DNA of 64,000 bases. Source: Thalassospira lucentensis (GTDB lineage: Bacteria > Pseudomonadota > Alphaproteobacteria > Rhodospirillales > Thalassospiraceae). The DNA is taken from assembly GCF_001613805.1 (NCBI RefSeq), contig NZ_LPVY01000013.1:62001-126000 (forward strand), given 5' to 3'. The number at the start of each line of letters is the position of its first letter. The stretch's first letter is position 1. The translations under genes and the position numbers were made by a program. The notes under the pieces are model-generated. The model ran no database searches. It was given only the letters and a program-made list of their open reading frames with translations, and was not told the origin of the DNA. Positions 15,490-26,021 of this stretch are shown here, in pieces.

Positions 15490-16505
15490 TTACGATAAAG
15501 GCAGGTGATATTGCTGCCTTGGCGGGCGAAAAAGGCGGCCTGGTGTTTCAGGCGTTCGCGGGCGTCGTCATCGATGTTTCCGTCATCGCCGCTGCTTTCG
15601 AGTTCGATTACGGTGGCGTCGCGGCGGGCAAGGCCCAGAATGTCGGCGGCGATGCCGGGCATGTGGAAGATGATGTCGGATGTTTCAATCGCGCGTGCAA
15701 TGCCATGGGCAAGGTCAAAGGCATTGTCAGCCATGACATCCGCATGCAGGATCTGACCGCCCGGGACGGTGGCGGAACTGCCTTCGGGGACGAAGCGGGT
15801 CAGAGCGGCGTCAAGGTCCTGCGGGGTGCTTTGCGTCAGATGGGTGTCCTGCAAACCGTTCTGGAAAAAATGCGTCCAGAACCGTTGTCTTGCGACATTG
15901 TCGGGCAGGTGGGCGGCAACGCGACGGCGGGCGCTGCGGGCGAGGCTTGCCAATTGTGACATTGAGGCCGGCAGGGTGGTTTCAAGCCGTTGGCGGATGA
16001 TGCGGGCCAGTGCCGGGGCGCAGCCGCCCGTCGAGATCGTGACCATCACCGGTGCCCGGTCAAGGATTGCAGGGACGATGAAATCGCAATGTTCGGTCTT
16101 GTCGACGACATTCAAAAGGATGTTGCGCCGTTTGGCCGCGATCTTGACCCGGCGGGTCATGTGCATGTCATCGGCGGCGTCAAAGATCATCACCGCGCCA
16201 TTTAGCATGGTATCGACAAACGGGGTTGCTTCCCAACGGATCGCGCCGGTATCGACCATCGTTGCGATGTCGGTGCACAGTTCCGGGGCGATGACGGTAA
16301 TATCGGCCTGACTGCGCAGTAAAAGGCGGAGTTTGCCCGCCGCGACCTCACCCCCGCCCAGCACGACGACCTTTTTGCCGGTGACATGGACAAAGGCCGG
16401 AAAGAAGGGGAAGGTTTCCCGGTTTTCCGTTTCAGGGCCATACAGGTTTTCGGGCTTGGCCGTTTTATACTGCTGCTTATTCTGCGGCGCGCGGTAATGC
16501 GTCAT
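15486..16505 (-). CDS. Siroheme synthase (precorrin-2 dehydrogenase/ferrochelatase) with degenerate methyltransferase tail
   Basis: The 339-residue protein starts at 16505, where AAGGAG lies 7 nt upstream; the start is inside the end of nasA (29-nt overlap). Residues about 30-235 are the CysG N-terminal module: NAD motif VVVLGGGEVAAGK, then VIAPEL and NVVDKTEHCDFIVPA. The module oxidises precorrin-2 and inserts iron to make the siroheme that NirB needs. The last ~100 residues resemble the start of a uroporphyrinogen-III methyltransferase domain (ADILGLARRDATVIEL matches SPEILALARRDA-type sequence). They lack the GxGPGD SAM loop and stop where VVRLKGGD would follow, so methylation is not expected from this protein. 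Confidence 0.85.
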   Translation of the reverse strand: MTHYRAPQNKQQYKTAKPENLYGPETENRETFPFFPAFVHVTGKKVVVLGGGEVAAGKLRLLLRSQADITVIAPELCTDIATMVDTGAIRWEATPFVDTMLNGAVMIFDAADDMHMTRRVKIAAKRRNILLNVVDKTEHCDFIVPAILDRAPVMVTISTGGCAPALARIIRQRLETTLPASMSQLASLARSARRRVAAHLPDNVARQRFWTHFFQNGLQDTHLTQSTPQDLDAALTRFVPEGSSATVPGGQILHADVMADNAFDLAHGIARAIETSDIIFHMPGIAADILGLARRDATVIELESSGDDGNIDDDARERLKHQAAFFARQGSNITCLYRN

Positions 16506-19212
16506 CAAGAATCTCCTTGAGTTCGGGCAGGCAGGAGCCGCATCCGGTTCCGGCTTGCAACAGGCGACCGATATCGGCGGTGCTGACCGCATTCTGGTCA
16601 TGGATGGCGCGTGTGATGGCCGCCAGCCCGACCGAGAAGCACGAACAGATCAAACGATCATTGATGGCCCCGGCATCGGGCATGCGCCCGGCAAGCAGGG
16701 CATTGCGTTCCGGCCCGCTGATCGCATCATTGCCCAGCAGTGCCGATATCCAGTCGCGGCCAAGGGCGGGGCGATCCGGGCCGACAAAAAGTGCGCCGGT
16801 GATACGGTCGCCATTCAGGCGTGCATAGCGATGAACGCCTTTTTTGCCGTCGTTATATTCGATGATGTGCTCGATGGCGTTTTCATCACCAATATTGTTG
16901 GCCGCCATCGGTAGCATGGATTTGAACAGGCAGGGCCTGTCACCGGCGATTTCGTAGATCATGCAGCCGGGGCCAGTTGCCGCCACCCAATAGGGCAGGT
17001 CTGAAAGATCAACCGGCGTGTTGGAAAACAGCAATCCCTGCCACAGCGGTTCAAACGGTTCGATGGAAACCGGGATATGTTTGGTTTCCGGTTGCCCGGA
17101 AAAGGGATCAACATGCGCGGTTGGCAAACGCCCGATACCGCCCGCCGATGAATAAACATCGTTCCAGTGCATCGGCATGAAGACTTCGCCGGGCATCTGG
17201 GCGTCTGATACGGATACCCGCATCAGGGCGGTGCCGCGTTTGCTTTTGATCCGGGCAAGGCCGCCATCGGTCAGCTTGTAACGCTTGGCATCAAGGATAT
17301 TGACTTCGAGCAGCGGTTCGGGCCGATGGGCTGAAAGGCGCGCGGCGGTGCCCGTACGGGTCATGGTGTGCCATTGGTCGCGATACCGGCCGCTATTGGC
17401 GATCAGCGGGAATTCCTTGCCCGGTTGCGACATGGGGAGTTTATGCGCAACCGCCAGCATACGGGCCCGCCCGTTTGAGGTGGTGAAAATGCCATTGCCG
17501 TACAGGCGTTCGGCGCCGCCAGCGGGTTGATGTTTGCGCGATGCCGGCCATTGGAACGGTTCCATGGCATCATAGGTCGATTTCTTTGCCTTGTGCCACT
17601 GGCCGATATCAAAGGCGCGCATGCCGTCATTTTCAAATTCCGACAGGGCGGCATGTTCGGCGAAAATATCGGCAGGATCGCGGTATTTGAACGCCTTGCC
17701 ATAGCCCATGGCGCGTGCGACCTGAGTCATGATCCACCAGTCGGGTTTGGCGTCGCCCTGTAGTTCGCGGAACGGACGTTGACGGGAAATGCGGCGTTCG
17801 GAATTGGTAACCGTGCCGGATTTTTCAGCCCACCCGGCGGCGGGCAGTTTGATGTGGGCATAACGCAGCGTGTCGGTGTCATTCACCGTGTCCGATACGA
17901 TCACCAGCGGGCAACGCGACAGGGCAAGACGGACGCGGTCCGCATCGGGCAGGCTGACGGCGGGATTGGTTGCCATGACCCAGACGGCCTTGATTTCACC
18001 GCGTTCGATGGCGCGGAACATATCGACCGCCTTGTATCCCTCGCCCGGTTCCAGAATATCGGATTTCCAGAACCGGCGGACGCGGTCAACGTCGTTAACA
18101 TCGTTCGGGTCCATATGGGCGGCAAGCTGGTTGGCAAGGCCACCAACCTCGCGCCCACCCATGGCATTGGGTTGGCCAGTGACGGAAAACGGGCTTGATC
18201 CCGGTTTGCCGACCCGTCCGGTCGCCAGATGGGTATTGATGATCGCATTGACCTTGTCAGAGCCGCTGCTGGACTGGTTGACACCTTGCGAAAACACGGT
18301 GACCGTGCGGTCAAAGGCGGCAAACCAGTTAAAGAACGTTTCCAGTTTCCCCAGACCCGAGCCGTCATGATCGGCGTACGCGCTGATCTCGGAAGGATAA
18401 TCGAGGCCGCATTTTTTGGCTGTACTCTCGATATCGGGGCAGTCCGCGCGTGCCTCGGCGATGGCGGTTTCATAGCCGCTGACATGGCGGGCGACATATT
18501 GAAGATCGCAATGACCGTTCTGGTCAAGCCATGCCAGCAAGCCGTTGAACAGGGCAACGTCGCTGCCCGGTTTGATTGGCAGGTGCAGATCGGCGGTGTC
18601 GCAGCTTGCGGTTTTGCGCGGGTCGATCACGACGATCTTGGTGCCGTGCTTTTCCCTGGCTGCGCGCAAACGCTGGTTCAGGACCGGATGGCACCATGCC
18701 AGGTTCGATCCGGTCAGGATGACCAGATCGGCAATTTCCAGGTCTTCGTAACATCCCGGTACGACATCGGCGCCAAAGGCACGTTTGTGCCCGACCACGG
18801 TTGATGCCATGCAAAGCCGGGAATTGGTATCGATATGCGGCGACCCGATGAAGCCCTTGATCAGCTTGTTGGCGATATAATAGTCCTCGGTCAATAACTG
18901 ACCGGAAACATAGAACGCCACCGATTTCGGGCCGTGTTTCTGGATGGTTGCGCGCAGGCGATCCGCGGTTTCCTGTGTGGCCGTTGGCCAGTCGACGGTT
19001 TTGCCGTCGATTTCGGGTTTCAGCAGGCGGAAATCGCGCTTCATCTCGGCGGTGATCGTATCGATCAGGGCGGCACCCTTTGAACACAACCGGCCCCGGT
19101 TGGCCGGGTGATCGGGGTCGCCCCCGACCGCCCAGCCGTCCCGGGTGGGGGAGACGATCAGGCCGCAGCCAACGCCGCAATAAGGACAGGTGGTTTTAAC
19201 CTCACCCCGCAT
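16477..19212 (-). CDS. nasA: Assimilatory nitrate reductase catalytic subunit
   Basis: This 911-residue cytoplasmic molybdoenzyme reduces nitrate to nitrite. The N-terminal [4Fe-4S] site is C9-x2-C12-x3-C16...C43. The Mo ligand is Cys134 in NSRLCMAS, as in NapA/NasA. The bis-MGD motifs include SGSNLAWCHP-type sequence and VMATNPAVSLPD. The molybdopterin-dinucleotide domain is about 610-740 (ANSGRYRDQWHTMTRTG). A C-terminal BFD-like [2Fe-2S] domain (ICSCFSVG ... GTGCGSCLPEL, about 855-900) probably takes electrons from the reductase partner. It overlaps nirD by 11 nt at its start. No separate NasB gene is present. Confidence 0.94.
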   Translation of the reverse strand: MRGEVKTTCPYCGVGCGLIVSPTRDGWAVGGDPDHPANRGRLCSKGAALIDTITAEMKRDFRLLKPEIDGKTVDWPTATQETADRLRATIQKHGPKSVAFYVSGQLLTEDYYIANKLIKGFIGSPHIDTNSRLCMASTVVGHKRAFGADVVPGCYEDLEIADLVILTGSNLAWCHPVLNQRLRAAREKHGTKIVVIDPRKTASCDTADLHLPIKPGSDVALFNGLLAWLDQNGHCDLQYVARHVSGYETAIAEARADCPDIESTAKKCGLDYPSEISAYADHDGSGLGKLETFFNWFAAFDRTVTVFSQGVNQSSSGSDKVNAIINTHLATGRVGKPGSSPFSVTGQPNAMGGREVGGLANQLAAHMDPNDVNDVDRVRRFWKSDILEPGEGYKAVDMFRAIERGEIKAVWVMATNPAVSLPDADRVRLALSRCPLVIVSDTVNDTDTLRYAHIKLPAAGWAEKSGTVTNSERRISRQRPFRELQGDAKPDWWIMTQVARAMGYGKAFKYRDPADIFAEHAALSEFENDGMRAFDIGQWHKAKKSTYDAMEPFQWPASRKHQPAGGAERLYGNGIFTTSNGRARMLAVAHKLPMSQPGKEFPLIANSGRYRDQWHTMTRTGTAARLSAHRPEPLLEVNILDAKRYKLTDGGLARIKSKRGTALMRVSVSDAQMPGEVFMPMHWNDVYSSAGGIGRLPTAHVDPFSGQPETKHIPVSIEPFEPLWQGLLFSNTPVDLSDLPYWVAATGPGCMIYEIAGDRPCLFKSMLPMAANNIGDENAIEHIIEYNDGKKGVHRYARLNGDRITGALFVGPDRPALGRDWISALLGNDAISGPERNALLAGRMPDAGAINDRLICSCFSVGLAAITRAIHDQNAVSTADIGRLLQAGTGCGSCLPELKEILDDALPRAAE

Positions 19213-19552
19213 GGCGCAGACCGATTTGTTCCGCCGTCAGGCCGATATGGACCGTGCCGTCAATGACGCGCAGTTCCACCTTGGCCGCACAGCCGTCATC
19301 GGGGCCCTGTGCCTCGCCGGTTTCAAGCGAAAAGACCATGTTATGCAGCGGGCAGGTGACAAAATGGCCATGCACGATCCCCTGTGCCAGCGGCCCGTTC
19401 TTGTGCGGGCAACGATCCAGAAGGGCGTAGACCTGATCATCAAGGGTTCTGAAAATCGCGATGCGATCAGTTTCGGTCTGAAAGGTGCGCGCGCCCTGAA
19501 GCGGGATATTGGCGACCGGTCCGACATTTACCCAGTTTACGATATCCGTCAT
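19202..19552 (-). CDS. nirD: Nitrite reductase (NADH) small subunit
   Basis: The 116-residue Rieske-like protein carries RCPHKNGPLAQG and CPLHNMVFSL, the C-x-H ... C-x2-H cluster-ligand pattern. Many NirD proteins lack these ligands; this one retains them. It starts 5 nt after the nirB stop and ends inside nasA, so nirB-nirD-nasA are tightly coupled. It assists NirB in six-electron reduction of nitrite to ammonium. The start at 19552 (MTDIVNW) is preferred over an upstream in-frame Met lying in nirB because it matches the family's length. Confidence 0.92.
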   Translation of the reverse strand: MTDIVNWVNVGPVANIPLQGARTFQTETDRIAIFRTLDDQVYALLDRCPHKNGPLAQGIVHGHFVTCPLHNMVFSLETGEAQGPDDGCAAKVELRVIDGTVHIGLTAEQIGLRHAG

Positions 19553-19557
19553 TGCCG

Positions 19558-22026
19558 TTACTCCGCTGCGATCAGGGAAAGGGATTTGAATTCGTGCGCA
19601 TCCACGCCCTGGCTGGCGCGTTCGGCCCACGGATCAACCTGTGCCGTTTTCTGGCTTTCCATGAAACGTTCAAACAGGGCGGCGCGATTTTTGGCATCAT
19701 CGACCACACGTTCCTGAACATGTTTCAGGCCAACACGTTCGATCCACGGTGCGGTGCGTTCCAGATAGCGGGCTTCTTCGCGGTAAAGCTGGATGAAGGC
19801 ACCGCAATATTCTTTTACTTCCTGATCGGTTGTGACCTTGCACAGAAGTTCGGTCGCACGCACATGAATGCCGCCATTGCCGCCGACATGAAGGTCCCAG
19901 CCGCCATCGGTTGCGACAACGCCGAAATCCTTGATCGTGGCTTCGGCACAGTTACGCGGGCAACCTGATACGGCCATCTTGAATTTGTGGGGCATCCAGG
20001 AGCCCCAGGTCATTTTTTCAAGGTCGACGGCCATGCTCATCGACATCTGGGTGCCAAAACGACACCATTCCTGTCCGACACAGCTTTTGACCGTGCGAAG
20101 GGACTTGCCATAGGCATGACCCGAAACCATCCCGGCCGCATTCAGATCGGCCCAGACGGCAGGCAGGTCTTCCTTTTTCACACCCAGAAGGTCAATGCGC
20201 TGCCCGCCGGTGACCTTGACGGTCGGGATATCGAATTTGTCAGCGACATCGGCAATGGCGCGCAATTCGCGCGGGTTGGTCAGACCGCCCCACATGCGGG
20301 GCACCACCGAATAGGTGCCGTCTTTCTGAATGTTGGCGTGAACGCGTTCGTTAATGAAGCGCGACGCACCATGATCGACATATTCACCCGGCCATGCGGC
20401 GAGGAGGTAATAGTTCAGCGCCGGGCGGCAGACATGGCAGCCGTCCGATGATTTCCATTCCAGTTCCTGCATGACGGCTGGCATGGATTTCAGTTCTTTC
20501 GCCTTGATCAGGCGGCGGACATTGTCATGGTCATGATCGGTACAGGTGCAGATCGGTTTGACCGCAGCCGCCTGATAATCACCGCCAAGGGTTGCCGCCA
20601 GAAGGTTTTCGACAAGGCCGCTGCATGAACCACAGGATGCGGATGCCTTGGTGTGGCCTTTGACTTCGTCAAGCGTTGTCAGGCCCTTTTCGGTGATGGC
20701 CGAAACGATGGTTCCCTTGCAAATGCCGTTGCAGCCACAAATCTCTGCGTCGTCTGGCAGGGCGGCAACGGCATCAAGAGGGTTTCCGGCAGATCCCCCG
20801 GCAAAGGCCTGACCAAAGGCGAGGGTATCGCGAAGTTCGGTCACGTCCTGACCATCCTTCATCAGCTGGAAATACCAGCCGCCATCGGATGTATCGCCAT
20901 AAAGGACGGCCCCCTTGATCCTGCCGTCTTCTAGAACGATGCGTTTGTAAACGCCGCGTCCGGCATCGCGGAAGACGATTTCTTCGGTTTCGCCACCGCC
21001 GGAAAAATCACCGGCGGAAAAAACATCGACCCCGGTGACTTTCAGTTTGGTCGAGGTCACCGAACCGGCATAGCCATCGGTTGCGATTTCGGCAAGATGA
21101 TCGGCACAGGATTTTGCCATTTCAAACAGCGGTGCAACAAGGCCATAGCACTGGCCGCGATGCTGCACGCATTCGCCAACGGCAAAGATATCCGGATCAC
21201 TGGTGGTCATGACATCGTCAACGACAATGCCGCGTTCGACGGTCAGTCCCGCGTCTGCGGCAAGGCGCCCGTTGGGGCGGATGCCAACAGCCATGACCAC
21301 CAGATCAGCCGGGATCATGCGCCCGTCCTTAAGCCGGACGCCGGTTACGCAATCGGTGCCGACGATTTCGGCGGTGTCGGCCTCGGTAATGACATTGATG
21401 CCCCGACGGCCAAGTTCCTGCGCGAGAAGGTAACCGGCCGACGGATCAAGCTGACGTTCCATCACGTGACCGGCCAGATGCAGGACCGTGACCGACATGC
21501 CGCGCGCCTGCAGGCCGACGGCGGCCTCAAGACCCAGAAGGCCACCACCGATGACGACAGCCGGGCCACCATTTGCCGCGGTTTTCAGCATGGTATCGAC
21601 ATCATCGACATCGCGGAAGGTGACAACACCCGAAAGCTTGTGGCCGGGGACCGGGATCATGATCGGGTCGGACCCGGTGGCCAGCAGAAGCTGGTCATAG
21701 GCGGTTTCGGTGCCGCTTTTGGAAATGACGACCTTGCGGGTGCGGTCGATTTCAACCACCGGATCGCCGGAAAACAGATGGATACGGTTTTCCTGATACC
21801 ATTCGGCAGTATTGATGACGATATCGTTGAATTCCTTTTCGCCCGACAGAAGCGGGGATAGCATGATGCGGTTATAGTTCACGCGTGGCTCGGCCCCGAA
21901 AACGGTGATTTCGTATTTGTCAGGGGCGCGACCGAGGATTTCCTCGACGGTGCGCATGCCGGCCATGCCGTTGCCGATGACGACAAGGCGGGGTTTCTTG
22001 GTAAGTGCTGCAGGGACGTGGTTCAT
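19558..22026 (-). CDS. nirB: Nitrite reductase (NADH) large subunit
   Basis: The 822-residue cytoplasmic enzyme has an N-terminal FAD/NAD(P) module (VVIGNGMAGMR; second Rossmann VVIGGGLLGLE). Two BFD-like [2Fe-2S] segments follow (CGCNGICKG ... SCGSC; then CTC ... GCHVC). The ferredoxin-like half-domain and siroheme-[4Fe-4S] domain have SCVGQEWC (C-x5-C) and SGCPRNC (C-x3-C). The start at 22026 (MNHVPAAL) has AGGAG 10 nt upstream. The frame stays open further up, but that stretch is the regulatory leader. It is first in the nirB-nirD-nasA-siroheme synthase operon, behind an ANTAR-type terminator/antiterminator. Confidence 0.94.
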   Translation of the reverse strand: MNHVPAALTKKPRLVVIGNGMAGMRTVEEILGRAPDKYEITVFGAEPRVNYNRIMLSPLLSGEKEFNDIVINTAEWYQENRIHLFSGDPVVEIDRTRKVVISKSGTETAYDQLLLATGSDPIMIPVPGHKLSGVVTFRDVDDVDTMLKTAANGGPAVVIGGGLLGLEAAVGLQARGMSVTVLHLAGHVMERQLDPSAGYLLAQELGRRGINVITEADTAEIVGTDCVTGVRLKDGRMIPADLVVMAVGIRPNGRLAADAGLTVERGIVVDDVMTTSDPDIFAVGECVQHRGQCYGLVAPLFEMAKSCADHLAEIATDGYAGSVTSTKLKVTGVDVFSAGDFSGGGETEEIVFRDAGRGVYKRIVLEDGRIKGAVLYGDTSDGGWYFQLMKDGQDVTELRDTLAFGQAFAGGSAGNPLDAVAALPDDAEICGCNGICKGTIVSAITEKGLTTLDEVKGHTKASASCGSCSGLVENLLAATLGGDYQAAAVKPICTCTDHDHDNVRRLIKAKELKSMPAVMQELEWKSSDGCHVCRPALNYYLLAAWPGEYVDHGASRFINERVHANIQKDGTYSVVPRMWGGLTNPRELRAIADVADKFDIPTVKVTGGQRIDLLGVKKEDLPAVWADLNAAGMVSGHAYGKSLRTVKSCVGQEWCRFGTQMSMSMAVDLEKMTWGSWMPHKFKMAVSGCPRNCAEATIKDFGVVATDGGWDLHVGGNGGIHVRATELLCKVTTDQEVKEYCGAFIQLYREEARYLERTAPWIERVGLKHVQERVVDDAKNRAALFERFMESQKTAQVDPWAERASQGVDAHEFKSLSLIAAE

Positions 22027-22062
22027 TTGTCTCTGGCTCCTGATCGCGGGAAGCGAATTGGC

Positions 22063-22117
22063 AAAAAAAAACGCCCGGTGCGCACTGCCTGTCAAAAAGG
22101 CAATCTCGCAACGGACG
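22063..22117 (-). terminator. Intrinsic leader terminator (attenuator) before nirB
   Basis: In the nirB RNA, CGTCCGTTGCG (22117-22107) pairs with CGCACCGGGCG (22082-22072): 11 positions, one mismatch, one wobble. It stacks on an inner ATTGCCT/AGGCAGT stem (7 bp, 7-nt loop). Nine uridines follow (22071-22063), and then the nirB ribosome site. This is the textbook shape of an intrinsic terminator placed 36 nt before the start codon, so it must be bypassed for nirB expression. Its first six bases are also the 3' half of antiterminator hairpin 2. Confidence 0.88.
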
Positions 22118-22148
22118 TCGTTATCCGGGTGAACCCGCCATTGGATTC
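22112..22148 (-). promoter_or_regulatory. Tandem hexaloop hairpins, ANTAR (NasT) antitermination element of nirB
   Basis: Hairpin 1 (22148-22131) is GAATCC-AATGGC-GGGTTC; hairpin 2 (22127-22112) is CGGAT-AACGAC-GTCCG; three bases separate them. Both loops are hexanucleotides with A at position 1 and G at position 4, the consensus for RNA bound by ANTAR-domain antiterminators (NasR, EutV, NasT). Hairpin 2 and the terminator share CGTCCG (22117-22112), so binding that stabilises hairpin 2 would prevent termination. NasT is encoded 2.2 kb away. A further hairpin upstream (22197-22180, loop AAGGTC) also fits A1/G4 and might be an extra site. Confidence 0.85.
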
Positions 22149-22214
22149 TATATATGGGGTTGGCATTTCTGCCGTGGCAGCAGGCGACCTTGCCCGCGCT
22201 CTTGTCCCTTACTA

Positions 22215-22230
22215 TACAAGTTGCGTGCCA
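22215..22230 (-). promoter_or_regulatory. Candidate sigma-54 promoter of nirB operon
   Basis: TGGCACG-N4-TTGTA has exact -24 element and spacing; the -12 element is TTGT instead of TTGC. Transcription would begin near 22204, giving a leader of about 178 nt that contains the tandem hairpins and terminator. Sigma-54 with NtrC is the usual nitrogen-limitation control of nitrate assimilation. An overlapping TATAGT could serve as a sigma-70 -10 element but has no good -35. Confidence 0.6.
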
Positions 22231-22308
22231 GAACTGCAGATTGCGCCGAAAAACTTGCAAAATACTGATTTAAAATAAGATTTTTGATGCCCACGGGATA
22301 AGCAAGAA

Positions 22309-22325
22309 TTGCACGAAACCTGTGA
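22309..22325. promoter_or_regulatory. Candidate NtrC-type enhancer site
   Basis: TTGCAC-N7-GTGA matches the GCAC-N7-GTGC core of NtrC boxes in 7 of 8 positions. It lies about 80 bp upstream of the nirB sigma-54 promoter and about 160 bp upstream of the narK one, suitable for an enhancer serving both. It is a single weak match. Confidence 0.3.
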
Positions 22326-22481
22326 TTGTTTAAAAAATAACCACACACAAAATGATGAGATTAAAAAATGTGCAAACATGCTGCTTCCAGACAGGGCGGG
22401 TTTTTCGTCTGTGCAGTTGCGGTGGATAAATTGTATTGAATTTCAGGGAATTATTTGAAAATTTCCGCGTTGCGAAAAAAT

Positions 22482-22497
22482 TGGCGCGCGGTTTGCA
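22482..22497 (+). promoter_or_regulatory. Candidate sigma-54 promoter of narK
   Basis: TGGCGCG-N4-TTGCA matches the -24/-12 consensus TGGCACG-N4-TTGCA at all but one position, with correct GG-to-GC spacing. Transcription would start near 22508 and yield a roughly 240-nt untranslated leader before the narK ATG, which includes the hexaloop hairpins at 22561-22612. Confidence 0.65.
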
Positions 22498-22560
22498 CAA
22501 CTTGTTTCGTGTGAGCCGCTTCGACGGAAGCAGGCCCAATGACGGGTGACTCACAGTTCT

Positions 22561-22612
22561 TCGTCCAATGGCGGGCGATCAGACGTTTGATTTTGGCGCG
22601 CAACGATGGCGC
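22561..22612 (+). promoter_or_regulatory. Tandem hexaloop hairpins, probable ANTAR (NasT) element of narK leader
   Basis: Hairpin 1 (22561-22578) is TCGTCC-AATGGC-GGGCGA. It has the same loop and inner TCC/GGG pairs as nirB hairpin 1, but its three outer pairs differ with compensating changes (TCG/CGA against GAA/TTC). Hairpin 2 (22596-22612) presents loop AACGAT closed by C-G on a GCGC/GCGC stem with a bulged G; nirB has AACGAC. Both loops have A1 and G4. The spacer is 17 nt, against 3 nt in nirB, and no U-tract terminator follows, so the readout could differ. Confidence 0.68.
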
Positions 22613-22634
22613 AGCCGCAGTCGAAACGAATGAC

Positions 22635-22673
22635 GGGCCGCCAGCGGAATCCATCTGATGAAGCGTGCGGCCC
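22635..22673 (+). other. GC-rich stem-loop in narK leader
   Basis: GGGCCGC (22635-22641) pairs perfectly with GCGGCCC (22667-22673), just after the hexaloop hairpins. GCCGCA at 22614-22619 could pair with the same 3' arm as an alternative. A second hairpin AACCGG-GAAA-CCGGTT lies at 22700-22715, before the narK ribosome site. No U-tract follows either, so these may act on Rho access or translation rather than as intrinsic terminators. Confidence 0.4.
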
Positions 22674-22746
22674 TTGGGGAAATAACCGTCGGTCGCGACA
22701 ACCGGGAAACCGGTTCGGAGTGACCCAAACGAAGGGCTTCATTGTT

Positions 22747-24111
22747 ATGGAAATCAAAAACAAGGCTCCGCGGATCAATCTCTTCAGTCTCAAGACTGTT
22801 CAGATGCGGACTTTCCACCTGACCTGGCTTGCGTTCTTCCTGTGTTTCTTTGGCTGGTTCGGTATCGCACCGCTGATGCCGCTTGTGCGCGATGATCTTG
22901 GCCTGACCAAGGGTGAAATCGGCAATACCATCATCGCGTCTGTCGCGATTACCGTTCTTGTGCGCCTTCTGATCGGGCCGCTTTGCGATAAAATCGGCCC
23001 GCGCAAGACCTATACGGCGTTGCTGGTTCTGGGGTCTTTGCCGGTCATGCTGATCGGGCTTGCAGATAGTTACGAAACATTCCTGCTGGCGCGTCTTGCC
23101 ATCGGTTCGATCGGGGCATCGTTCGTGATCACGCAGTATCATACCTCGACCATGTTTGCGCCGAACGTTGTCGGTACCGCAAATGCGACCACGGCGGGCT
23201 GGGGCAACCTTGGCGGGGGTGTGACACAGATGGTCATGCCGCTGATCCTTGCCATGGTGCTTGGCTTTGGCGTTTCGGAAACCATGGGCTGGCGTCTGGC
23301 GATGGTCTTCCCGGGTGTGATCATGCTGGTGGTTGCGGCACTTTACTGGTTCTTCACCACCGATGCGCCGGATGGCAACTATGCCGACATGCGCAAAAGC
23401 GGTGCCCTGTCACCGGAAGATGATCATGCCGGTGCGACCAAGGGCATGCTGGCCGCGGCCAAGGATTACCGGGTCTGGGCGCTGTTTCTGGTTTACGGGG
23501 CGTGTTTCGGTGTCGAGCTTACGATCAACAACATCGCCGCGATCTATTTCTTTGACCGGTTCGAGCTTAGCCTTCAGACAGCCGGTTTGATTGCCGGTCT
23601 GTTTGGTTTGATGAACATCTTTGCCCGTACGCTGGGCGGGGTGTTTTCCGACAAGTTTGCCGCCAAGGGCGGGCTTTCGGGTCGCGTCAAATTCCTGTTC
23701 CTGGCGCTGTTCATCGAAGGTGTTGCACTTGTTGCGTTTTCGATGATGGATGCGCTGGTCATCGCGGTTTCGATGATGGTGGTCTTCTCGCTTTTCGTGC
23801 AGATGTCCGAAGGGGCAACATTCGGGATTGTTCCGTTTGTTAACCGCAAGGCGCTTGGCTCGGTTGCCGGTATTGTCGGTGCGGGCGGGAATGCCGGGGC
23901 GGTTGCCGCGGGCTTCCTGTTCAAATCCGAGGCGCTGACCTATCAGCAGGGCCTGATGTATCTTGGCATTGCCGTGATTATCTGTTCCTTTGCAGCGCTT
24001 GCGGTTCGTTTCTCGGAAAAGACCGTGGCCGAGGAAAAGGAACGTTTCGAAAAAGCCATGCAGGAACGCGATGCGCTGCCATCCGGTGCGCAGGCGGTTC
24101 CGGCGGAATAA
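22747..24111 (+). CDS. narK: NarK-type nitrate/nitrite transporter (MFS)
   Basis: The 454-residue, 12-TM major facilitator protein contains both nitrate-signature glycine motifs, GWGNLGGGVTQ (TM5) and GAGGNAGAVAAGF (TM11). It also has the MFS loop GPLCDKIGPRKTY and conserved Arg residues in TM2 and TM8 regions. It would import nitrate, and probably exchange nitrite, for the cytoplasmic NasA. The ATG at 22747 (MEIKNK) has GAAGGG about 10 nt upstream; earlier in-frame codons lie in the RNA leader. It diverges from nirB and is followed by nasT-nasS after a strong hairpin. Confidence 0.92.
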   Translation: MEIKNKAPRINLFSLKTVQMRTFHLTWLAFFLCFFGWFGIAPLMPLVRDDLGLTKGEIGNTIIASVAITVLVRLLIGPLCDKIGPRKTYTALLVLGSLPVMLIGLADSYETFLLARLAIGSIGASFVITQYHTSTMFAPNVVGTANATTAGWGNLGGGVTQMVMPLILAMVLGFGVSETMGWRLAMVFPGVIMLVVAALYWFFTTDAPDGNYADMRKSGALSPEDDHAGATKGMLAAAKDYRVWALFLVYGACFGVELTINNIAAIYFFDRFELSLQTAGLIAGLFGLMNIFARTLGGVFSDKFAAKGGLSGRVKFLFLALFIEGVALVAFSMMDALVIAVSMMVVFSLFVQMSEGATFGIVPFVNRKALGSVAGIVGAGGNAGAVAAGFLFKSEALTYQQGLMYLGIAVIICSFAALAVRFSEKTVAEEKERFEKAMQERDALPSGAQAVPAE

Positions 24112-24233: not shown

Positions 24234-24821
24234 ATGAAGCTTGAAGACTTCAGCATTCTGGTGATCGACGAAAACCCGGACCGTGCCGCCATTGTTGAGC
24301 GCGGCCTTGTCGAAAGTGGCTATACCCGCGTCAGCCGCATCGGCACGTCATACAATCTGGTCGAACGCATTCAGGCGTTGGCCCCCGACATCATCATCAT
24401 TGATCTTGAAAACCCGGACCGTGATACGTTGGAACAGATGTTTCAGGTATCGCGTGTTATTGCGCGCCCGATTGCGATGTTTGTCGATCAAAGCGACAGC
24501 AACACGATCCGCGAGGCGGTAGAGGCCGGGGTCAGTGCCTATGTCGTTGATGGCTTGCGTCAGGATCGTATTCGGCCCATCGTCGAAATGGCCATTTCGC
24601 GTTTCAACGCGTTTGACCAGTTGCGCCGGGAACGGGACGAAGCCAAGGCCAAGCTTAATGATCGCAAGTTGATTGATCGGGCAAAAGGACTTCTGATGCA
24701 GGAAAAGGGGCTGAGCGAGGACGAGGCCTATAACCTGCTGCGCAAAAATGCCATGAAACAGAACCGCAAAATTTCTGAAATCGCGCAAAGCGTGATCACG
24801 GCCTTTCAGTTGGAGTTCTAA
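24234..24821 (+). CDS. nasT: ANTAR-domain antitermination regulator NasT
   Basis: The 195-residue protein has an N-terminal receiver-like domain (about 5-120; D12/E13 and D57 in IIIIDLENP) and a C-terminal ANTAR RNA-binding domain (about 130-192; DRAKGLLMQEKGLSEDEAY and RKISEIAQSV). In studied systems (Azotobacter, Paracoccus, Pseudomonas) NasT binds the nas leader RNA and prevents termination. NasS sequesters it when nitrate and nitrite are absent. Here NasS follows after 3 nt. The putative targets are the hexaloop leaders of nirB and narK. Confidence 0.9.
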   Translation: MKLEDFSILVIDENPDRAAIVERGLVESGYTRVSRIGTSYNLVERIQALAPDIIIIDLENPDRDTLEQMFQVSRVIARPIAMFVDQSDSNTIREAVEAGVSAYVVDGLRQDRIRPIVEMAISRFNAFDQLRRERDEAKAKLNDRKLIDRAKGLLMQEKGLSEDEAYNLLRKNAMKQNRKISEIAQSVITAFQLEF

Positions 24822-24824
24822 CGC

Positions 24825-26021
24825 ATGTCCCTTAAACAGGTTCGACTTGGCTTTGTGCCACTTGTGGATTGTGCCCTGCCTGTCGTGGCGCGTGCCAAGG
24901 GCTTTGCCGAGGAAGAAAATATCGACCTGACCCTGATCCGGGAAATGTCCTGGGCCGCCATTCGCGACAAGCTGTCTTATGGGGTTTATGACGCGGCGCA
25001 TTTGCTGGCGGGTATTCCGCTGGCAGCGCGGCTTGGGCTTGGCGGGATGCCGTCGCAGCGCATTGCGGTGCCGATGGCGCTGGGGCGCGGCGGGAATGCG
25101 ATTACGGTTTCAACCCGGCTTTATCAGCGGATGCTTGAAGCGGATCCGGCGGCGATGCATGGGCCGCGCGGGCTTTCGGCACGGGCACTTAAAAAGGTGA
25201 TCGACGAGGACCGGGCGGCCGGTCGTCCGATCATGTCCTTTGCGACCGTATTCCCGTATTCGAGCCATAATTACGAACTGCGTTACTGGATGGCGGCGGG
25301 CGGTATTGACCCCGATAAGGACGTCAATATTGGCGTGATTGCGCCACCACGGATGTTTGACAGTCTGCGCAATGGCTGGGTCGATGGCTATTGCGTGGGG
25401 GAGCCATGGAACCAGCGGGCGGTGTTCCATGGGGATGGCGTGATTGTCGCGCTTAAGGAAGATATCTGGGCGCGCAGCCCGGAAAAGGTTCTTGGCGTGC
25501 GCGAAGACTGGGTGCAGTCCAATCCCGATACGGTGGATGCACTGGTGCGTGCGCTTGTCCGGTCGGCCGAATGGGCCGATCAGCCGGAAAACCGCACCGA
25601 ACTGGCGCAATTGCTGTCTGGTGAAAATCACGTCGGCGCATCGTTTGATATTCTGCGGGCATCGTTGCTTGGCCGACCGGTGCTTAAACCCGGGGACAAT
25701 CCGATTGAGGCGCCTGATCGCCATGTGTTTTATCGCTATACCGCAACGTTCCCGTGGCTGTCGCAGGGGGCGTGGGTTGGCACACAGATGCAGCGGTGGG
25801 GGCAGGTGGATGCTAGCGTCGATTTCAATACGCTTATTTCCGACATTTACCGTCCCGACCTTTATCGCCGTGCGGTCAAGGGGCTTGATGTTGCGCTTCC
25901 GCATGATGACTGGCGGGTTGAGGGCGTGAATGATGCCGCCGACCGGGCGTTTGTCGGCCCGGATGCGTTTCTGGATAACAGCATATTTGACATGCGCAGC
26001 TTTGCCGGTGTCGGGGAATAG
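24825..26021 (+). CDS. nasS: Nitrate/nitrite sensor NasS (NrtA-like, cytoplasmic)
   Basis: The 398-residue protein is related to the NrtA/NasF periplasmic nitrate-binding family (VRLGFVPLVDCALPVVARAKG; VGEPWNQRAVFHGDG) but has no signal peptide or lipobox, as expected for the cytoplasmic NasS. Binding nitrate or nitrite would release NasT to act on leader RNA. It is coupled to nasT (3-nt gap), in the order nasT-nasS rather than the more often described nasS-nasT. No NrtB/NrtD genes adjoin it, which supports a sensing role rather than ABC transport. Confidence 0.88.
   Translation: MSLKQVRLGFVPLVDCALPVVARAKGFAEEENIDLTLIREMSWAAIRDKLSYGVYDAAHLLAGIPLAARLGLGGMPSQRIAVPMALGRGGNAITVSTRLYQRMLEADPAAMHGPRGLSARALKKVIDEDRAAGRPIMSFATVFPYSSHNYELRYWMAAGGIDPDKDVNIGVIAPPRMFDSLRNGWVDGYCVGEPWNQRAVFHGDGVIVALKEDIWARSPEKVLGVREDWVQSNPDTVDALVRALVRSAEWADQPENRTELAQLLSGENHVGASFDILRASLLGRPVLKPGDNPIEAPDRHVFYRYTATFPWLSQGAWVGTQMQRWGQVDASVDFNTLISDIYRPDLYRRAVKGLDVALPHDDWRVEGVNDAADRAFVGPDAFLDNSIFDMRSFAGVGE

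Follow-up and report, generated by a model that had tools for sequence, protein, structure and literature searches.

The window analysed here, a 64,000-nt stretch of Thalassospira lucentensis DNA taken at its full length, contains two divergent groups of nitrate and nitrite genes. Leftward on the minus strand lie nirB, encoding the large subunit of nitrite reductase (19558–22026; NCBIfam TIGR02374, 962 bits against a cut-off of 578), nirD, encoding the small subunit (longest open reading frame 19202–19630; TIGR02378, 84 bits, cut-off 75), and a gene whose product is, by its Pfam domains, a nitrate reductase-like molybdoprotein with a C-terminal BFD [2Fe-2S] domain (16477–19212). NCBIfam models for NasC and formate dehydrogenase match this last product below their cut-offs, and its terminal BFD-type domain also matches part of the NirB model. 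Rightward on the plus strand follow a narK-type nitrate/nitrite transporter gene (22747–24111; TIGR00886, 308.5 bits, just below the cut-off of 311.7), the gene for NasT, which has a receiver-like and an ANTAR domain (24234–24821; Pfam ANTAR PF03861, 76 bits), and a gene for a NasS-like nitrate sensor with an NMT1_2 domain (24825–26021), whose role is read from its adjacency to NasT. The distance of 2.2 kb between the NasT gene and the nirB start agrees with the initial annotation of the locus.

The nirB leader is read from the minus strand. Its upstream end is marked by TGGCACG-CAAC-TTGTA (22215–22230), which agrees with 11 of 12 positions of the sigma54 consensus and which we take to be a sigma54-like promoter with a predicted +1 at about 22204. 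Downstream lie three hairpins with six-base loops that carry A at position 1 and G at position 4 (A1/G4 hexaloops): P0, GCGGGC-AAGGTC-GCCTGC (22180–22197); P1, GAATCC-AATGGC-GGGTTC (22131–22148, by direct reading); and P2, CGGAT-AACGAC-GTCCG (22112–22127), the predicted antiterminator. A small hairpin 3′ of P0, GGC-AGAAAT-GCC (22162–22173; alignment by eye), is not an ANTAR hexaloop. P2 and a predicted intrinsic terminator stem (22072–22117; −23.9 kcal/mol when folded alone) are mutually exclusive, and the stem is followed by a nine-U tract (22063–22071) upstream of the nirB ATG (22024–22026).

Two further stretches near the leader are recorded as observations. The segment from the U-tract to the nirB start (22027–22062, minus strand), TTCGC-N-TCCCGCGA...GGAGCCAGAGACA, hardly varies within the genus though untranslated, and might fold into a small UCGC/GCGA hairpin ahead of the ribosome site. 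On the plus strand, opposite the region upstream of nirB, 22254–22423 gives a sub-threshold match to the Rfam family Atu_L1 (27 bits, gathering score 60); no curated Rfam family reaches its gathering score in the window.

A predicted switch between P2 and the terminator

The initial annotation had described the leader as tandem ANTAR hexaloops that exclude a terminator, and its account of this structure is exact to the base. P1 and P2 lie 3 nt apart, separated by the linker ACC; the CGTCCG common to P2 and the 5′ arm of the terminator consists of the 5-nt 3′ arm of P2 (GTCCG) together with loop base C6; and direct reading places the end of the terminator, with its nine uridines, 36 nt before the nirB start. 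The inventory of hexaloops was right for P1 and P2 and missed P0, as well as those in the leader of the divergent narK gene.

In prefix folding from P1 onwards, P2 is part of the minimum-energy structure until the 3′ arm of the terminator emerges, at which point, as the U-tract begins, the terminator beats P2 by 6.5 to 8.9 kcal/mol. Because the terminator outcompetes P2 in these predicted folds, termination would be the default and P2 would have to be held by something. A 101-nt segment folds better than 200 of 200 dinucleotide shuffles (z −3.25), whereas the full 178-nt leader stands out less (z −1.70), with 8 of 200 shuffles equalling it; the minimum-energy fold of the full leader includes P0 and the terminator and omits P1. 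The interrupted nirB terminator stem is not listed by a simple terminator scan.

Hexaloop matches could arise by chance in GC-rich DNA, and single A1/G4 hexaloops are indeed common, with 71 in the window (stems of at least 5 bp, both strands). As a tandem, P1–P2 is the only A1/G4 pair on either strand of the window when stems from 5 bp upward and gaps up to 8 nt are counted, and all 16 loop-letter classes together give five such tandems, or about 0.3 per class, which makes a chance tandem inside the 180-nt nirB leader unlikely. With the shuffle and loop-letter controls and conservation in 21 of 21 leaders also standing against it, we regard a chance origin as extremely improbable. A P1–P2 covariance model (R1) finds one strong match in the window's genome (E 3e-14), the next being at E 1.6.

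The same arrangement is known from the ANTAR dual-hexaloop antiterminators of the EutV/eut, NasR/nasF and AmiR/amiE systems (PMC3369931, PMC8934654), with which the nirB leader shares two adjacent A1/G4 six-base loops, a short linker, a predicted overlap that makes the second hairpin and the intrinsic terminator exclusive, and an ANTAR protein encoded in the genome. It differs from them in having a third hexaloop upstream, near the predicted 5′ end, and in the closure of P2: the loop-closing pair is C:G in P0 and P1 and U-G in P2 in all 21 alignment rows. NasR prefers a C:G loop-closing pair in SELEX (PMC7496416), a preference and not a defining feature. From the letters of the leader and its predicted folds, the reading of the nirB leader as an ANTAR/NasT antitermination switch is supported, with NasT binding and read-through as predicted steps.

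Conservation within the genus points the same way. A NirB search in 60 genomes, with the loci re-oriented, gave 21 Thalassospira leaders, the window's included, and P1, P2, the 3′ arm of the terminator and the U-tract are kept in all of them; the initial annotation had said that its reading would fail if close relatives had lost the loops or the stem pairing, and no such loss is seen. Compensatory change, which it had proposed to look for, is not seen within the genus, where the invariant stems of P1 and P2 show conservation and not compensation; P1 does change in this way outside the genus; and the stem of P2 is unchanged there. In an alignment of 20 Thalassospira leaders and L030, the covariation score for P0, P1 and P2 is not above shuffles (0.043 against 0.044), the single pair with a two-sided change lies in P0, and the terminator stem has no covariation. 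By R1 the element is present in 23 of 29 Thalassospira genomes; 22 of 22 checked that have nirB contain it, and none of six that lack nirB does. NirB searches of these six element-less genomes gave only weak matches to other proteins, and NarK is absent from all of them (E 1e-60). NasT, found in 14 of 18 Thalassospira genomes checked, is absent from G003, G006, G007 and G013, the four element-less genomes covered by that search (G019 and G027 lay outside it), and its presence follows that of the element in the 18.

Beyond the genus, a 13-leader alignment with a few doubtful gaps has two-sided changes in 5 cells of the P1 stem against 1.4 in shuffles (0 of 500 reach this) and in three of its six pairs (reached by 25 of 500 shuffles); the P2 stem is invariant in these leaders except for one closing pair. 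The A1/G4 loops described by the initial annotation hold throughout the genus; the strict A1 does not hold outside it, where position 1 is sometimes G.

At the level of the order, R1 gave 12 matches outside the genus, and the seven inspected comprise four nirB leaders and three stretches not beside nirB (L062, L064 and L066). Seven nirB loci from other families of the order (L023–L029) have no such leader by eye. In family f19, nirB occurs in 10 of 72 genomes and the element in seven of those ten; the other three nirB genes (G248, G253 and G259) are without it as read. G036 has NasT and nirB, and G033 has NasT, in each case without an R1 match, so the link between element and NasT is looser outside the genus. 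Together with the strength of the terminator stem, these two genomes would fit a terminator and hairpins that operate without NasT, by constitutive attenuation or through another factor. The hexaloop letters and the P2–terminator overlap are conserved beyond the genus, however, and within it presence follows nasT, so we find such NasT-free operation very hard to credit and retain NasT antitermination as the preferred reading.

At class level, model R2 under strict filters matched 15 of 385 genomes: the window's own, G045, eight further leaders, and five stretches (L111–L114 and L117) that were dropped because by eye they do not resemble leaders. Scanning named genomes for the pattern yielded 44 stretches. 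A T-run lies behind P2 in 33, which come from Thalassospira, Niveispirillum, Azospirillum, Tistlia, Caenispirillum, other alphaproteobacteria and, in one case, Lachnospiraceae. The 11 stretches without a T-run and the one from Lachnospiraceae were read as chance and dropped; of the remaining 32, L126, L158, L160 and L162 entered the leader set, the others being Thalassospira, leaders already in the set, or near copies. Thirty loci with NasS-like genes were also scanned and gave 11 leaders, two of them repeats, hence nine new ones; the P1–P2 linker is 2–8 nt long in these eleven. The leader set used below holds 38 leaders, made up of 10 representatives of the 21 from Thalassospira and 28 others. 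As a separate observation, L116 (1501–1536, minus strand), from another family, has a T-run and three hexaloops of the sequence AATGGC upstream of a 410-aa reading frame; it does not resemble nirB and is a possible ANTAR target.

A third hexaloop near the predicted 5′ end

Three A1/G4 hexaloops are present in the nirB leaders of 19 of 20 Thalassospira. Across species P0 takes forms such as GCAGAC-ACAGAT-GTTTGC, GCAGGC-AGCGAC-GCCTGT, GGCCAGC-AACGCT-GCTGGCC, GGTCAGC-AACGCT-GCTGACC and GCGGGT-AACGAC-GCCCGC. Within the 75 nt before P1, an A1/G4 hairpin of at least 5 bp occurs in 19 of 29 leaders, where the shuffle expectation is 0.7; in the same leaders G1/G4 occurs in five and each of the other 14 loop-letter classes in zero to three. 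When one mismatch is allowed, A1/G4 hairpins are found in 10 of 10 Thalassospira leaders (shuffles 0.4) and in 17 of 28 other alphaproteobacterial leaders (shuffles 1.5), purine1/G4 hairpins in 23 of the 28 non-Thalassospira leaders (shuffles 4.3), and G1/G4 alone in four Thalassospira and 11 others, with zero to three for the other 14 classes; the A1/G4 match of L106 is in a different register from its G1 hairpin. G1 loops occur in the P0 of L101, L105, L106, L158, L171 and L182.

In 21 P0 hairpins, 92% of cells pair, and two-sided changes amount to 25 cells against 6.7 after shuffling (0 of 500), affect five of six pairs (32 of 500 shuffles reach that) and compare with 2–7 cells in slid controls; since the choice of hairpins from other genera was in part guided by their pairing, the test is supportive and not independent, nor do leaders from a single genus count as independent.

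A sigma54-like site (at least 9 of 12 consensus positions) precedes 33 of the 38 leaders, and in 29 of these 33, as a raw count, a purine1/G4 hexaloop (at least 4 pairs, one mismatch allowed) lies between the predicted +1 and P1. Its loop begins at a median of +12 from the predicted start (quartiles 11–14) and between +7 and +15 in 24 of 29 leaders. In L108 and L115 the hairpin with the top score (+35 and +71, respectively) is not the one near the promoter (+12 and +34). The distance from the P0 loop to P1, on the other hand, varies from 20 to 46 nt. Being near-constant from the predicted +1 and variable from P1, P0 looks anchored to the point where the RNA is predicted to begin, not to P1; the spacing of P1 and P2 is tight by contrast.

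P0 is not universal. It is absent from L177 and L180 of family f72, which have only 13 nt between the predicted +1 and P1, and it was not found in L170, despite room for it, or in L172. In L094 it has just 4 bp, and in L018 it contains an A-C mismatch and was missed by the promoter-distance scoring. With P1, P2, a terminator and two hexaloops only, L177 and L180 form a natural two-hairpin control.

Hairpins at the 5′ end often stabilise RNAs, and P0 could be such a structural element, protecting or insulating the RNA without NasT, while NasT acts through P1 and P2 as in a classic two-hairpin switch. P1–P2 alone fits the published element (PMC3369931), and the two f72 leaders do have P1, P2 and the terminator with no P0. 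A stability hairpin, however, needs no six-base loop with a purine at position 1 and G at position 4, and in the 29 leaders ANNG loops number 19 and GNNG loops five against zero to three for the others. The stem letters of P0 change from species to species, yet 21 of 21 hairpins keep G4, with either A or G at position 1. We consider a purely structural P0 unlikely, and favour its being a site for NasT.

Two other proposals for this region were rejected. Long-range pairing of the CGCGGG of P0 with a conserved CCCGCG after the terminator is lost, by eye, in L018–L020, and the hairpin 3′ of P0, as a partner for the ANTAR protein, varies between species in both loop length and loop letters.

NasT and the proposed mechanism

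The nirB leader, with three A1/G4 hexaloops of which the last overlaps the predicted terminator, is likely (probability of roughly 0.8) to be a NasT antitermination switch to which a 5′-terminal recruitment hairpin has been added. Under nitrogen limitation, the predicted sigma54 promoter would start an RNA about 7 nt 5′ of P0. Without nitrate, NasS would hold NasT inactive, and the 3′ arm of the terminator, on emerging, would open P2 and so bring polymerase to a halt at the U-tract. When nitrate is present, NasT released from NasS would bind P0 and P1 as soon as each is made, then either move on to P2 or bind it in addition, and keep it folded. Read-through would then allow nirB, nirD and the gene for the nitrate reductase to be transcribed.

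Walshe et al. 2022 (PMC8934654) proposed that one hairpin recruits the protein and then transfers it to the hairpin that mediates antitermination, and P0 may be an earlier NasT capture site within that model. ANTAR switches need two hairpins even though the dimer touches just one loop at once. Leaders with an extra hexaloop at the predicted 5′ end, at a free distance from P1, offer a direct test of early capture, and a third hexaloop would widen RNA models that seek two hexaloops only.

NasT itself aligns with EutV (6wsh, E 1.6e-22) and NasR (4akk, E 3e-8). The RNA-contact residues of EutV include R142, K143, Y164 and M172 (PMC8934654; chain numbering shifted by two to fit this source), and NasT is identical at all four, with K147 replaced by R and R177 by K; judged by this alignment, most of the RNA-contact ANTAR residues of EutV are kept. 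In NasT, K stands in place of EutV N173 and N in place of R175, and since the EutV triple mutant N173A/R175A/R177A lost binding (PMC8934654), these differences count against NasT as a one-to-one copy of EutV. The receiver lysine of EutV is an aspartate in NasT, and its absence accords with regulation through NasS rather than through phosphorylation.

The locus also resembles the NasS–NasT systems that control nas, narK, nirA, nap and nos genes in Paracoccus and Bradyrhizobium: in both, a NasT–NasS pair stands beside nitrate assimilation genes, and leader hairpins precede nitrite/nitrate reductase and narK genes (PMC3795266, PMC5424462, PMC6759348, PMC4724949). Those accounts, compared by their descriptions only, speak of hairpins HI and HII, of a hairpin series or of hairpins generally, and the descriptions include neither three hexaloops nor anchoring at the 5′ end; a 'series of regulatory hairpins' before nasA is mentioned without data (PMC3795266). 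The literature drawn on for ANTAR and NasT also includes PMC3369936. No three-hexaloop ANTAR leader appears among the literature matches listed, which consist of titles and abstract openings; the primary NasT work in Azotobacter and Pseudomonas lies outside that coverage, and priority is therefore not established. As a predicted NasT/ANTAR leader, the nirB leader looks to be of a known kind, and its promoter-anchored third hexaloop looks new.

The leader of narK

Divergently from nirB, the narK gene is preceded on the plus strand by a sigma54-like promoter, identified by eye, TTGGCGCG-CGGT-TTGCA (22481–22498), and by two hexaloop hairpins, NP1, GCCC-AATGAC-GGGT (22534–22547), and NP2, TCGTCC-AATGGC-GGGCGA (22561–22578). 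Of 20 Thalassospira, 18 have NP1 as an A1/G4 hairpin, the exceptions being L012 and L015. The two most divergent Thalassospira have quite different NP1 stems, ATTTCCCC-AGTGCC-GGGGAAAT and TTCCTCC-AACGAT-GGAGGAA, and five genomes of four other genera have NP1 as a purine1/G4 hairpin with new stems. The NP2 core TCGTCC-AAYGGC-GGRCGA is identical in 21 of 21 stretches from Thalassospira and in these same five genomes. In 13 of 18 genomes searched, NarK had no match.

No U-tract terminator is seen in the narK leader; the terminator scan lists none on the plus strand in 22500–22746, but it also missed that of nirB. The leader is a possible terminator-free NasT target. Consensus folding pairs GUUCUUCGU (22556–22564), which overlaps NP2, with ACGAAGGGC (22729–22737) at the ribosome site, as a helix of 9–11 uninterrupted bp in 8 of 10 leaders. 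In those eight leaders, 7–29 other windows pair at least equally well, and in a separate control 0–40 windows pair better; pairings across species are often as strong as a leader's own, and shuffled ribosome sites reach the energy in 12–264 of 300 cases. Because the controls do not favour it over other pairings, sequestration of the ribosome site is set aside as anything more than a weak lead.

Actinobacterial ANTAR RNAs that act on translation (PMC8164766) combine hexaloops with the lack of an intrinsic terminator, and in the narK leader none is seen either. In many cases the actinobacterial hairpins overlie the start codon or the ribosome site, whereas the narK hairpins end about 170 nt 5′ of the start codon; in mycobacteria, ANTAR binding represses (PMC8164766). 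A wider reading would join both leaders: alphaproteobacterial NasT leaders would form a three-hexaloop class with capture at P0 and handover to P1 and P2, and NasT would operate a second, terminator-free switch on narK, where NP2 would compete with the ribosome-site helix, one protein thus controlling divergent genes by transcription and by translation. We put this forward tentatively and hold it to be rather doubtful as a whole. In Bradyrhizobium, narK has predicted NasT hairpins, and its expression went down in one nasT study and up in another, the growth conditions differing (PMC4724949, PMC6759348).
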